From Phycisphaerales bacterium (GTDB lineage: Bacteria > Planctomycetota > Phycisphaerae > Phycisphaerales > UBA5793), in the NCBI GenBank assembly GCA_020852515.1, contig JADZAS010000023.1:1-64000 (forward strand): 64,000 nucleotides of DNA. The letters are read 5' to 3'. Position numbers and translations under genes: made by a program. The first letter of the stretch is position 1. The number at the start of each line of letters is the position of its first letter. Below, piece by piece: positions 20,267 through 24,228 of this stretch. The notes beneath the pieces were generated by a model. The model had not been told where the DNA came from and did no database searches. It saw only the letters and a program-made list of their open reading frames with translations.

Positions 20267-20404
20267 CTTGTCATTCCTCTCTTCGCCGCAGCGGCGATGG
20301 GAATCGTATCAGCAGCCCGTTCGCAGGATCATCGCCCATGGTTCCGCGATTCGCCTGCCCGGTGCGCTCCCTGACTGCGCGGCAAATCCTGGCCGCGAGC
20401 ACGA

Positions 20405-20410
20405 TACGAT
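20405..20410 (+). promoter_or_regulatory. -10 box of zinc-ribbon membrane protein gene, leaderless arrangement
   Basis: TACGAT ends six bases before ATG 20417. No Shine-Dalgarno is visible. Confidence 0.4.
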
Positions 20411-20416
20411 CGCCTG

Positions 20417-20878
20417 ATGCGACAGCGCCTGCGCAGCACGATCAAGTGGACCGGTACGGCGGCGACCGTGGGGCTGCTGGTGGTGTGGGTGGGGAGTGCG
20501 TTCGGAGGGGCCGGCTTCGACTGTTCGCCGACACTAAATGGCGGGGTACGGTCGGGATGCCTCTACCTCGGTTGGGAGACTCCGTGGAGAGCTTGGCCGC
20601 AATCCTGGCATGGTGAAGTCTACAGGAACATGAGGGTCGGAATGTTCTGGGAGTGGTGGTTCGCGGTCTGGCAAGTAGCGCTGCCTGGTGGCATCACTTA
20701 CGCTGGCGTCGCTATCCCTGTTTGGAGTATCGCAATCACCATGGGCACTCCAATCGCTTGGCTATGGATTCGCGACCGCCGCCGCGCGCCGGGGCTCTGC
20801 CTCAACTGCGGCTACGACCTGCGCGGAACGGATCATGCGGCGTGTCCGGAGTGCGGTGACCAGAAAGCGCCTCGCTGA
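20417..20878 (+). CDS. Small membrane protein with C-terminal zinc ribbon
   Basis: 153 residues. Two hydrophobic helices (about 10-30 and 88-112) flank an extracytoplasmic loop with two Cys. A basic segment (WIRDRRRAPG) leads into a cytoplasmic C-terminal zinc ribbon, CLNCGYDLRGT...CPECG. The YDLRG-type ribbon at the end of small membrane proteins is a recurrent planctomycete feature with no assigned function. The transcript appears leaderless. Confidence 0.75.
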   Translation: MRQRLRSTIKWTGTAATVGLLVVWVGSAFGGAGFDCSPTLNGGVRSGCLYLGWETPWRAWPQSWHGEVYRNMRVGMFWEWWFAVWQVALPGGITYAGVAIPVWSIAITMGTPIAWLWIRDRRRAPGLCLNCGYDLRGTDHAACPECGDQKAPR

Positions 20879-21120
20879 CGCTTCGGGCTCGCTTCGCGCG
20901 TGCTCGAACGATCATGCCGCTCCGTCGTAGGTCGGGACCGCTGCTCTGAGCGCGGCCCGGCGGGCTGGACGTGTTATGGAGCTTGGACGTGCGTGGCGCG
21001 CCGGCCGTCGAATTGCCGGGCCTGCGCTCTTCGGCTCGGCTCAGGATCTCGACAGAGCCTTGTCCCGACCTACGCCCGTGCGAGGACGCGTGTCGAGATG
21101 GCTCGCCATGAGCGACGCAT
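20879..21120. other. Intergenic region left of GIY-YIG gene
   Basis: No convincing coding frame. It contains the first copy of a 27-bp direct repeat (21092-21118) and otherwise nothing I can name. Confidence 0.4.
21092..21118. repeat. 27-bp direct repeat, copy 1
   Basis: Identical over 27 bases (from GTCGAGATGGCTCGCCATG to AGCGACGC) to 21524-21550. The pair brackets the GIY-YIG gene. Both are close to the mobile element's left end. Confidence 0.8.
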
Positions 21121-21408
21121 TCATCTTGTGCGTCGCCGACTCAACTCGTGGAGTTGCTTCACGTCTCCGGCGATGAGGGCTTCCTTTTTTCCCCGGGACC
21201 ATCTCTTGATTTGGATTTCGCGCTTTCGAGCGGCGCTCAATGTGGGATGTGGCTCGGAGTAGACCAGCGAGACCGGTCTCCGCTTCGCGGTGTGGGCTGA
21301 ACCACGACCGCTGTTGTGGACGTCAACTCTTGAGTCGAGTTCGGCGGTGACGCCGACGTAGAGAGACTGGTCGGCGCAACGGAGAGTGTAGAGATGAAAG
21401 GCAGACAC
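21121..21408 (-). CDS. GIY-YIG nuclease-domain protein
   Basis: 95 residues, the size of a stand-alone GIY-YIG domain (UPF0213/YhbQ-like). The first strand reads FHLYTLRCADQSLYVGVTAEL, with LYT and YVG in place of GIY and YIG. Arg in the first helix (DSRVDVHNSGRG), the TAKRRPVSLVYSE strand and KREIQIKRWSRGKKEALI follow the family pattern. Members of this size are often annotated as endonucleases without proven activity. The gene sits between two 27-bp direct repeats, next to the integrated element but outside its att sites. Confidence 0.85.
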   Translation of the reverse strand: MSAFHLYTLRCADQSLYVGVTAELDSRVDVHNSGRGSAHTAKRRPVSLVYSEPHPTLSAARKREIQIKRWSRGKKEALIAGDVKQLHELSRRRTR

Positions 21409-21523
21409 GCCGGGAGTCTAGGAAGCATTGACTCCGTTCTGGACGTAGGCCACGGCAGCCCTTCGACTCCCAGAACCTCGCTCAGGGCATTCGACTCCGC
21501 ATCATTCGCGCGGAACAAGCGGA

Positions 21524-21550
21524 GTCGAGATGGCTCGCCATGAGCGACGC
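21524..21550. repeat. 27-bp direct repeat, copy 2
   Basis: Second copy of the repeat at 21092-21118, 27 bases left of the att core. It is preceded by an inverted repeat TCGACTCCGC (21491-21500) / GCGGAGTCGA (21519-21528) that overlaps its first bases. Confidence 0.8.
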
Positions 21551-21577
21551 GCCGGTGCCTGCACCGCCGTGGAGTCG

Positions 21578-21603
21578 AATGGAGCCGGGGGGAATCGAAC
21601 CCC
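21578..21603. repeat. Left attachment site (26-bp copy of tmRNA 3' end)
   Basis: These 26 bases are identical to 23877-23902, the 3' terminus of ssrA (acceptor end and T-arm). They are the displaced end left by site-specific insertion. After the core the sequence diverges from tmRNA, so this is not a tRNA gene although it looks like the 3' end of one. In the frame of the integrase it reads MEPGGIEP. Confidence 0.85.
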
Positions 21604-21779
21604 GCGAAATCAGCTGTGGCGGTAGCCGCAATGGGCATGACGCACAGATAGACGCACAGGGCAACGCCGATCTCGCCCGCGTCGTGCGTGCGTGGCCGAA
21701 TATGCCCGACAAACTGCGAGCCGTAGTCGTGGCGGCGGTGGATGCGTTGGGGTTGCTGCAAGGGGAAGTCGATGAGTGA
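21604..21779 (+). other. Detached C-terminal coding segment of the integrase (restored on excision)
   Basis: From the core the frame reads MEPGGIEP, then REISCGGSRNGHDAQIDAQ and a helical end ADLARVVRAWPNMPDKLRAVV...GEVDE, stopping at 21779. It lacks a start of its own. The integrase at 22600 reads the other core copy in the same phase (MEPGGIEP). Joining 22600-23902 to 21604-21779 gives 1479 bases, an intact 492-residue frame. From memory, planctomycete integrases often end in a similar AW-P-LP-x-R-x-A segment. It is therefore probably the native integrase tail, separated by integration; a remnant of an older integrase is the alternative. Confidence 0.65.
21637..21658. repeat. Putative arm-type integrase site, copy in left end
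   Basis: 22-base sequence identical to 23714-23735. Each copy contains GACGCACA twice, separated by GATA (12-base period). In the circular form the two copies would lie on opposite sides of the att core, as arm-type sites do. Confidence 0.5.
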
Positions 21780-22425
21780 TGTTGAGCGCATCAACGCGAT
21801 TCTTCCGCGTCTCCTGCGTGACCTGGCGAATCAGGTTGAGGCGGCGGGGCCGCTCGGGGGCGAGGCTTTGCGAGCGGCGCAGCCCGGAGCGGGAACGACC
21901 GACGCTTTGGGAGGGAGTGACTGCGCAGCCCCGAAGCGGTCCCGAGTCCGTAGTGAGCGAGCCTTCAGGCCGCGAGCGAACGAAGGACGGTCCGCCGATG
22001 TTGTGCGCGATGATGAAGTGGCGAGGGGTGAAGTGTCGAACGCGGCCGGGCTGACCAGCCCGGCCGCGTTCCTTTCACTTGAATACATTCAACAAGATCG
22101 TGACCATGTTGAGAGTGCGTTGGTGACAAGGTATGACATGCGGTGCTTGACCCCACGCCATGCAACGAATAGCGTTGTTTCGACTCTCGAGGGAGAGCCA
22201 CATCCTGCCGGCAGGTTGCCAGCGAGCGCCCAGCCGAATATGCAGGCACCTTCCATCGCACGCAAGTGGCTGCGTGCACGAGTCCATGTGAAACGAAATG
22301 CAGCGTCCGCCCAGGCTGAAACGTCTGTGCCTGGTGATCGAGTCGGGTGCTGCACTCACACGGAACCGCTCACCGTCGAACGCGGCGAGCAGATGGCAGG
22401 AGTGAATCATGAGTCGGGAACTTGA
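21772..22425 (+). CDS. Hypothetical protein overlapping the integrase tail
   Basis: ATG 21772 overlaps the stop of the integrase tail (ATGAGTGA), an arrangement of translationally coupled genes. The first ~25 residues (MSDVERINAILPRLLRDLAN) look like a real amphipathic helix. Beyond about residue 40 the composition becomes less protein-like, and the frame runs through the strong hairpin at 22038-22071, so the true gene may be shorter or frameshifted. No family recognised. In the circular form of the element it would be the third gene of an xis-int operon. Confidence 0.3.
   Translation: MSDVERINAILPRLLRDLANQVEAAGPLGGEALRAAQPGAGTTDALGGSDCAAPKRSRVRSERAFRPRANEGRSADVVRDDEVARGEVSNAAGLTSPAAFLSLEYIQQDRDHVESALVTRYDMRCLTPRHATNSVVSTLEGEPHPAGRLPASAQPNMQAPSIARKWLRARVHVKRNAASAQAETSVPGDRVGCCTHTEPLTVERGEQMAGVNHESGT
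22038..22071 (+). terminator. Strong hairpin inside the mobile element
   Basis: Perfect 15-bp stem (GAACGCGGCCGGGCT pairs with AGCCCGGCCGCGTTC) with a GACC loop, followed by CCTTTCACTT. It would stop transcripts entering from the left, including the operon re-formed in the circular state. The T run is imperfect. Confidence 0.6.
22072..22408. other. Non-coding region upstream of excisionase
   Basis: 337 bases with no convincing gene on either strand; the minus-strand frame here is a continuation of an antisense shadow of the integrase. A small palindrome TTGAAT-AC-ATTCAA at 22079-22092 could be an operator. The xis/int promoter should lie in this stretch but I cannot place it. Confidence 0.4.
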
Positions 22426-22603
22426 GCAGTACCTGAGCGTAAAGCAAGTGGCGGCCCGGTTGGCTTGTTCGACTCGGACAGTCTGGCGTCGGGTCGCGGA
22501 AGGTCTTCTGTCGGAGCCGAAGCGATTCGGCGGGCTGACCCGTTGGCGTGAGGATGATGTCGTGAAATCACTGCGGCGGATGGAACGGAGCGGCGCCCAA
22601 TGA
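22409..22603 (+). CDS. Excisionase-type HTH protein (AlpA/MerR-like)
   Basis: 64 residues, with AGGAG nine bases before the ATG. The pattern YLSVKQVAARLACSTRTVWRRVAEGLL ... RFGGLTRWREDDV (in part) is that of excisionase/AlpA winged-helix domains, which bend DNA at att sites to favour excision. Its stop overlaps the integrase start (ATGA at 22600-22603), so both are translated together. Together they make the recombination module of the element in ssrA. Confidence 0.85.
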   Translation: MSRELEQYLSVKQVAARLACSTRTVWRRVAEGLLSEPKRFGGLTRWREDDVVKSLRRMERSGAQ

Positions 22604-23940
22604 TCGCCAAGGTCGTGCGTCCAACTCGAATCCGCAACGGCAAGCGAGTGAAGGGCCGCATTCTCCGCGGCCGCATCAAACTCGACGGTGACGCAAAAGA
22701 GCGTTGGGTTTCGCTTGGAACCTCGGACCAGCGAGTGGCGGATAAGCGTCTGCGTGAGATCGTGGAGCGGGAAGAGCGTGAACGGGCCGGGATCGCTCCG
22801 CCTCGCGCTCTTGTCGATGCCGCGTCTCGTCCGGTGGTCGAGCACCTGGCGGAGTACATCGAGGAACTGCGCAGTCTCGGGCGGAGCCGTGATTACGTGC
22901 GCAAGCCGGAGCATCGGATCGGAGAACTCATCGCCGATTGCGGCTGGAAGTTCCTGCGTGAGGTGACGCCGGAGAGTTTTGAGGCGTGGCGTCGTGGCGC
23001 CCTGAATCGTCTGGCCGCGAAGACGTTGAATGAGTACTTGGCGGCGGCCCGATCATTCCTGGCGTGGCTGCATGATCGCGAGCGGATCGCCAGCAACCCG
23101 CTCAGCCGCGTCCGTCGCGTCGGTAAGGCTCCATCGCATGAGCGGCGGGCGTTTGCCCTGGATGAACTGCAACGGCTCCTCGACGCTTCTGGGCCGCGTC
23201 GGGTGGTGTACCTGGTTGCGGCAAAGACGGGGCTCCGGTTCAACGAGCTGCGTCGTCTGCGATGGAGCGACGTGCATCTCGACGGTTGTCAGGGGCTCGA
23301 TGGTCGTGCAGCCATCTTGCTGCGAGCGGAAAGCACGAAGGCAAAGCGGCCCGACGTGTTGCCGCTGTCCGGTGATGTCGTCGAGGAACTGCGGAGCATC
23401 CGGCCGCAATCGCCGGGCGTGGATGCGCGCGTGTTCGCCAAGGGAATGCCGAGTCACCATACCTGGGCCGAAGACTTGCGACGGGCCGGGATCAAGGCGA
23501 GCGAAGTGATTGACGGGCTGGAGGTCCGTGTGTGCTTTCACTCACTGCGCCACACGTTTGCGACGATGCTCGACGGAGCGGGCGTGACGGGGCGGATGAA
23601 GATGGCGTTGACGCGGCACACGGATCCTCGGCTGTCAGAGGGCGTGTACACACACGTGCGGAGTCTTTCCCTGGCGGGAGCCGTTGACCGGCTTCCTGTG
23701 CTTCGCCGGGGCGATGACGCACAGATAGACGCACATGTTTGGGTCACGGAGAGTCGCGGGGCGTCTCGGGGTGACACTGCGGCCGATTCGGACGGGGCTT
23801 CGGAAAGTGCTGGAAATGAAGGGGTTTTTGCACGAAATGACGCGGATGGGCACGTCGTGGCAGAGGCGGTAGAATCAATGGAGCCGGGGGGAATCGAACC
23901 CCCGTCCCGTACAGTCGAACTGCCGCCTCTACGTGTGTAG
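22600..23940 (+). CDS. Tyrosine recombinase (integrase) of element in ssrA
   Basis: 446 residues. An N-terminal arm-binding-like region (about 1-75) and a SAM-like core-binding domain (about 80-170) precede the catalytic domain. Catalytic residues are Arg213 in TGLRFNELRRL, His314 and Arg317 in HSLRHTF, His340 in LTRHTDPRL and nucleophile Tyr350 in GVYTHV. Codons after 23877 are antisense to the tmRNA gene: the last ~22 residues (MEPGGIEPPSRTVELPPLRV) come from the host att site, not from the element. In the circular form the frame would run instead into 21604-21779. It catalyses insertion into, and with the excisionase removal from, the 3' end of ssrA. Confidence 0.92.
   Translation: MIAKVVRPTRIRNGKRVKGRILRGRIKLDGDAKERWVSLGTSDQRVADKRLREIVEREERERAGIAPPRALVDAASRPVVEHLAEYIEELRSLGRSRDYVRKPEHRIGELIADCGWKFLREVTPESFEAWRRGALNRLAAKTLNEYLAAARSFLAWLHDRERIASNPLSRVRRVGKAPSHERRAFALDELQRLLDASGPRRVVYLVAAKTGLRFNELRRLRWSDVHLDGCQGLDGRAAILLRAESTKAKRPDVLPLSGDVVEELRSIRPQSPGVDARVFAKGMPSHHTWAEDLRRAGIKASEVIDGLEVRVCFHSLRHTFATMLDGAGVTGRMKMALTRHTDPRLSEGVYTHVRSLSLAGAVDRLPVLRRGDDAQIDAHVWVTESRGASRGDTAADSDGASESAGNEGVFARNDADGHVVAEAVESMEPGGIEPPSRTVELPPLRV
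23714..23735. repeat. Putative arm-type integrase site, copy in integrase gene
   Basis: Identical to 21637-21658, with GACGCACA twice, separated by GATA. It lies 141 bases left of the right att core, inside the integrase reading frame (DDAQIDA). Confidence 0.5.
23877..23902. repeat. Right attachment site (3' end of ssrA)
   Basis: 26 bases identical to 21578-21603. It is the intact acceptor 3' strand and T-arm of the tmRNA, so insertion kept the tmRNA gene functional. The distance between cores gives an element of 2299 bases. Confidence 0.88.
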
Positions 23941-24228
23941 TCGATGTTTTGATCTCGATCCTCGGACGACCATCGACGGCCTTCCTTTGGATCACTCCGC
24001 GATCGTTTCTCGCCCTTGTGAGTTCGCGATGGACTCTCCGGGCCAGCCTGCTGTGTTTTCGATCCACCCCGCCCGCAGGCAAGAGAGACGGATCGTGCCG
24101 CTTATGTTAAGCAGCAAGAGCGAACTGCGTGTTGGCAGTTATGGTTTTGCACATTTGATAACGCGGTCCACGTGCGCCGCGACACGCCACGACAGCCCCA
24201 ACCTGTCCGGTCGAAACCAGTCGGCCCC
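23879..24228 (-). ncRNA. ssrA: Transfer-messenger RNA (tmRNA)
   Basis: The minus strand begins GGGGCCGACTGGTTTCGAC, the standard tmRNA 5' end with the G-rich acceptor strand. It ends GGTTCGATTCCCCCCGGCTCC, and both ends pair as a 7-bp acceptor stem with one G-U. The CCA is not encoded. The tag frame ends at TAA 24109-24107 and reads ...ANTQFALAA, with the ALAA degron for ClpXP and related proteases. Codons upstream of ANTQ (KTIT) may also belong to the tag; the resume codon is not certain. It rescues stalled ribosomes with SmpB. About 350 nt, a usual size, single-piece. Confidence 0.95.

Follow-up and report, generated by a model that had tools for sequence, protein, structure and literature searches.

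The 64,000-nt stretch of planctomycete DNA analysed here (the window) very probably carries a 2.3-kb integrative element with its attP inside its own integrase gene, so arranged that a conserved C-terminal tail, encoded only by the free circle, is lost on integration and rebuilt on excision.

Element borders and target site

The features of the element and its target, in window coordinates, are as follows.

21578..21603, + strand: attL core, a copy of the tmRNA 3' end; exact 26-bp repeat of 23877-23902; empty site in congeners
21604..21779, + strand: left segment, P' arm linker and circle-only integrase tail, 58 residues; joined ORF open, tail HMM E 5e-20, stop at 21777-21779
21637..21658, + strand: candidate arm-type direct repeat of the P' arm, ATGACGCACAGATAGACGCACA; 33 bp from the core, 22/22 identical to 23714-23735
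21663..21752, + strand: conserved two-helix tail motif DLARVVRAWPNMPDKLRAVVVAAVDAL; profile match E 8.4e-15, helices in the AF2 model of homologue L224
21772..22425, + strand: 217-aa ORF overlapping the tail stop; weak coding signature
22409..22603, + strand: small HTH protein, putative excisionase, upstream of int; phrog_66, HTH_17
22600..23940, + strand: tyrosine integrase, integrated form, 446 aa; PF00589 E 2.5e-12, phrog_1 E 5.7e-46
23714..23735, + strand: candidate arm-type direct repeat of the P arm; 141 bp from the core, inside int
23877..23902, + strand: attR core, identical to the 3' end of the tmRNA gene
23879..24228, - strand: intact tmRNA gene, the target site; ARAGORN, tag ANTQFALAA

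The two 26-bp cores (AATGGAGCCGGGGGGAATCGAACCCC) are exact, allow no further extension, lie 2299 bp apart and are both read in one frame as MEPGGIEP. In two congeneric genomes nothing separates the left flank from the core and the tmRNA gene, which were recovered together as a single 880-bp alignment at 90.8% identity in G004 and a single 894-bp alignment at 85.2% in G001. Since both congeners display this empty site, the 2.3 kb is an insertion, and with the tDNA end directly repeated at each border it belongs among the tDNA-targeted elements.

The host flank to the left of the element (window 20300-21603) consists of dispersed repeats, with 49 matches in its own genome and including a 27-bp repeat at 21092-21118 and 21524-21550. 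Repeats related to this flank also adjoin tmRNA or tRNA-Ala genes in congeners.

Within the element, no family was found for the 217-aa ORF. It contains a perfect 16-bp inverted repeat at 22038-22071, possibly a terminator or regulatory hairpin.

Two predicted forms of the integrase

The integrated integrase displays the R..HxxR..H..Y pattern of catalytic residues that defines tyrosine recombinases. By motif position these residues (R213, H314, R317, H340 and Y350) are all upstream of the core, which starts at residue 427, and the last 12 residues of the protein are antisense tmRNA. When 22600-23902 is joined to 21604-21779 the result is one open frame of 492 aa; recomputing the frame thus bore out the proposal in the initial annotation that the cores are in phase and that the joined integrase is uninterrupted. 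Codon-position GC follows the same pattern on both sides of the join, at 0.77/0.44/0.68 in the tail and 0.73/0.50/0.69 in int. The gene calls are corrected accordingly, as the true C-terminus of the integrase sits at the opposite end of the element.

Two details of that annotation required revision. The joined gene had been described as an ATGA-coupled pair with the ORF at 21772, but that ORF overlaps the tail stop by 8 nt and not by the canonical 4-nt ATGA. The tail had also been said to have no start codon of its own; this holds for the region before the motif, whereas an in-frame ATG at 21702, inside the motif, could give at most a 25-residue fragment. Overlap of the tail with the start of the next ORF was observed in the window and in G052, G032, G076, G025, G088, L149, L178 and L210, but not in all relatives. 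In the circle of the window element, the tailed integrase gene, the 217-aa ORF, the HTH gene and int would make a closed chain of overlapping ORFs.

The whole attP, comprising P arm, core and P' arm, would lie inside the 3' coding part of int, where it would encode a flexible linker. The direct repeats flanking the core, which the initial annotation had overlooked, are candidate arm-type sites by analogy with lambda-like integrases. Across 30 elements the longest repeat common to the pre-core int and the left segment averaged 13.5 bp, against 6.6 bp in mismatched pairs, and a common repeat of at least 12 bp was present in 17 of the 30 elements compared with 0.9% of controls. These repeats are mostly positioned about 100-180 bp before the core and 23-100 bp after it.

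Conservation of the tail

At a lenient E of 1, 222 of the 301 genomes searched in the order contained segments related to the left 50 residues, and the tail profile matched 56 of 199 genomes across the phylum at an E of 0.01. Many of the tails are followed, 1 to 40 kb downstream, by a same-strand integrase. The conserved motif in relatives reads L..V...AWP.LP...RA.I.AMV. A left segment unrelated in homologous elements had been named as grounds for abandoning the original proposal; comparison of homologous integrases found it conserved, so that objection fails. The tail had no match to any known domain, its profile had no credible match in the PDB, and the window's own genome held no second copy beyond a chance-level match.

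Two further occurrences of the tail were observed. At L081 (G234:C21:2500-8310) a 471-aa frame of DDPFAP repeats, with no relation to integrases, terminates in the tail motif DPDLQRVCDAWPTMAPQLRRAMLALVDAAD; it may be a host gene that has acquired a tail. The genome behind L171 (G505) is a single MAG with eleven tail copies, i.e. many such elements or remnants within one genome.

In-phase joining across Planctomycetota

To ask how general the layout is, elements were resolved in two sets, giving 34 in all. The first 14 are the window and 13 tail-integrase pairs picked without regard to phase; the other 20 form a tail-blind set, obtained by gathering integrases on their own sequence only, including with an alignment that stopped before the core. 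In the tail-blind set the join was scored wherever a core common to the upstream end was found, and most integrase-first loci are outside the count, their left ends lying beyond the DNA examined.

In 32 of the 34 elements the integrase frame runs through the core into a tail in phase, a regularity beyond chance. Among the resolved elements the targets are tRNA-Glu, Ala, Gly, Ser, Arg, Lys, Asn, Leu, Met, Thr, Val and SeC genes and tmRNA. All 13 pairs of the first set join in phase, as does the window, through exact cores of 25-60 bp derived from tRNA-Glu, SeC, Ala, Ser, Arg, Gly, Lys, Thr or tmRNA. Seventeen tail-blind elements carry the tail in phase (G088, G005, G042, L137, L141, L144, L157, L160, L166, L169, L170, L174, L178, L188, L210, G029 and G023), and L149 has a divergent tail that is also in phase. 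The tails of G042, G088 and L149 give weak profile matches; G088 has its tDNA at the other border with the join still in phase, and the elements of G029 and G023 are about 31 and 76 kb long.

The two exceptions among the 34 are G054 and L147, and some further loci also depart from this pattern. G054 has an exact 45-bp core but an unrelated 26-aa tail, and L101 (G048, from the genus of G054) has an inexact left core and no visible tail. L147 (CP053450.1, core copies near 1150 and 11396) has tail and integrase in different frames, possibly through a sequencing indel or else through a real break. L083 was left out of the count: the outer part of its left core has a 2-nt deletion, although crossover within the inner core would give an in-phase join to a tail. 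Nor is the layout obligatory, because the integrases of the L164, L165 and L175-L187 group end without any tDNA nearby. It does explain why many planctomycete integrases end in tRNA-like peptides such as WSRGESNPRP.

Tails and integrase bodies appear from pairwise identities to be shuffled between elements: G004 and G001 share 98% identity in the tail but 76% in the body, and G006 and G011 share 70% in the tail but 92% in the body.

The congeners also contain int plus HTH elements of 2.2-2.4 kb in tRNA-Glu genes, L063 (G004:C70:106500-111500) and L064 (G001:C72:23000-28000). Over 324 bp at the left end the two are 97% identical, against 78% on the int side, which suggests exchange of halves between elements. 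At L340 (G029:C185:34500-38500) the apparent 3' end of a second related integrase lies left of the attL core, at about 1480-1683, in phase with core and tail. This sequence looks like the remnant of a tandem neighbour and suggests that tandem arrays may rebuild a hybrid int 3' end while integrated.

Joined forms in viral contigs

As phage and plasmid collections yielded no useful relatives, joined forms were taken from IMG/VR, where a scan with the window's joined protein itself returned one distant locus. Contigs L223, L224, L229 and L276 encode the integrase, a tRNA-like core and the tail as one ORF with no adjoining tRNA gene, so the joined state is not merely a reconstruction. The 43,208-bp L224 contig carries a direct terminal repeat of 127 bp, a feature that usually marks a genome as circular or complete. 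Contigs L214, L234, L237 and L238 read through a T-arm-like core into tails that lack the motif.

In the AF2 model of L224 a three-strand plus helix element lies at the N-terminus; the recombinase body (blocks mostly >90) and a two-helix hairpin at 539-571 (up to 88) are modelled with confidence. The stretch between, 433-532, scores <50; it is predicted to be disordered and would contain the att-encoded linker. Foldseek matched the body to XerA, Tn1549 Int and lambda Int.

Taken together, the anatomy of the element, the in-phase join, the conservation of the tail and the joined viral forms indicate that integration exchanges the Int C-terminus and that excision would restore it. The central claim of the initial annotation, an attP inside int with a C-terminus swapped on integration and a longer integrase on excision, is strongly supported by the 32 of 34 elements, the contiguous viral forms and the empty site.

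A possible role for the tail

Under the model we propose, the element would consist of int, a putative xis and one further ORF. Beyond the linker, int would encode the conserved helical-hairpin tail, and the full 492-aa enzyme would be encoded by the circle only. Integration at the tmRNA gene would leave the catalytic domain intact, replace the tail with 12 antisense-tmRNA residues, and strand the tail at the far end of the element without a start codon; excision would then rebuild the joined integrase.

We infer that both Int forms are made and that the tail alters Int activity. The originally suggested switch could act on the stability, activity or direction of the recombinase. The most likely of the possible roles, still held tentatively, is that tailed Int promotes circle integration and that loss of the tail helps to keep the element integrated until Xis acts; integration proficiency is assigned to the tailed form since an incoming circle can make no other. 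These elements may represent a widespread planctomycete class that controls recombination through a DNA-encoded enzyme switch, a helical "circle-state" tail removed by integration and restored by excision, with the protein reporting the free or integrated state, an interpretation we put forward tentatively. Directionality of such integrases becomes testable in that two natural forms of one enzyme can be compared.

It is somewhat unlikely that the arrangement is a structural by-product, in which attP nested in int forms a compact module of enzyme and site, the tail does no more than terminate the protein and the two versions of Int behave alike. The position of the catalytic residues upstream of the core and the apparent shuffling of tails and bodies would fit this account. 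The authors of Islander likewise allow for integrases extending across attP, naming Mx8 and SSV (PMC4383910), and an archaeal review proposes that an att site within int makes a compact exchangeable module (PMC8371274). However, a useless C-terminus would not be expected to keep the AWP.LP hairpin across families and target tRNAs, or to give dN/dS well below 1; tail values are mostly 0.1-0.6, with many pairs near saturation. An unlikely explanation is that the tail is a stability or partner-binding tag, so that circle-made Int is unstable or bound by a factor of the host or the element and Int levels, rather than chemistry, differ by state. A small hairpin on a disordered linker that matches no known domain is consistent with such a tag, but the last tail residues are variable and form no conserved degron-like end.

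We reject as highly improbable an independent small gene that happens to sit at the left end of the element, for all that most genomes of the order have tail-like matches: among 30 orphan tails there was no in-frame start codon accompanied by a Shine-Dalgarno match, 17 of these tails lack any start codon ahead of the motif, and phase with the core and the contiguous fusions also oppose it. GC-rich DNA does yield long open frames, but the idea of a chance frame through a tRNA-like repeat is refuted, with next to no probability left to it, by conservation of motif and phase at many different tDNAs.

Comparison with known systems

The integrase resembles arm-binding tyrosine recombinases, phage lambda Int among them, in its fold, its N-terminal three-strand plus helix element and the candidate arm-type repeats flanking its core. 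Lambda differs from the window element in having attP outside the coding sequence of int. In mycobacteriophage BPs the attachment site is inside the repressor gene and integration alters the repressor product, whereas in the window element it is the integrase itself that is altered. The BPs attachment site is described in PMC4557955 as belonging to an integration-dependent regulatory (immunity) system.

The "suicidal" archaeal integrases of the SSV type also have attP inside the integrase gene, and integration splits the ORF and inactivates the integrase (PMC8371274). There the catalytic domain is parted from the N-terminal part and the fragments are inactive, while the window element loses nothing but the tail and keeps its catalytic domain in one piece. 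We rejected inactivation of the SSV type, as catalytic residues 213-350 all precede the core at 427.

The closest likeness is to IntP of the Myxococcus phages Mx8 and Mx9, in which, as reviewed in PMC6070905, attP is within int, the catalytic domain is retained and the C-terminus is exchanged on integration. The review states that integration gives Mx8 int a new 3' end, with activity modified, not abolished, and already proposes a "molecular switch" in integrase function; Mx9 is described there as similar (citing Tojo 1996, Magrini 1999 and Julien 2003), and in both a small excisionase gene, uoi, overlaps the int start. Mx8 Int reads STGLEPVLLGS, which is tRNA-like, ahead of its tail. Its body had no BLASTP match to the window integrase with E below 2, and homology of its tail to the planctomycete tail was rejected, the best domain scoring -3 bits against the tail profile. 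The planctomycete tail, by contrast, forms a conserved family that spans a phylum and occurs at many tDNA targets.

Our partial coverage of the literature turned up no published planctomycete case of attP within int, and in the literature surveyed the exchange of an integrase C-terminus by its own integration is known in bacteria for two Myxococcus phages. The principle is thus known from Mx8 and Mx9; what is new is its recurrence as a layout across Planctomycetota, with a conserved tail encoded only by the free circle.
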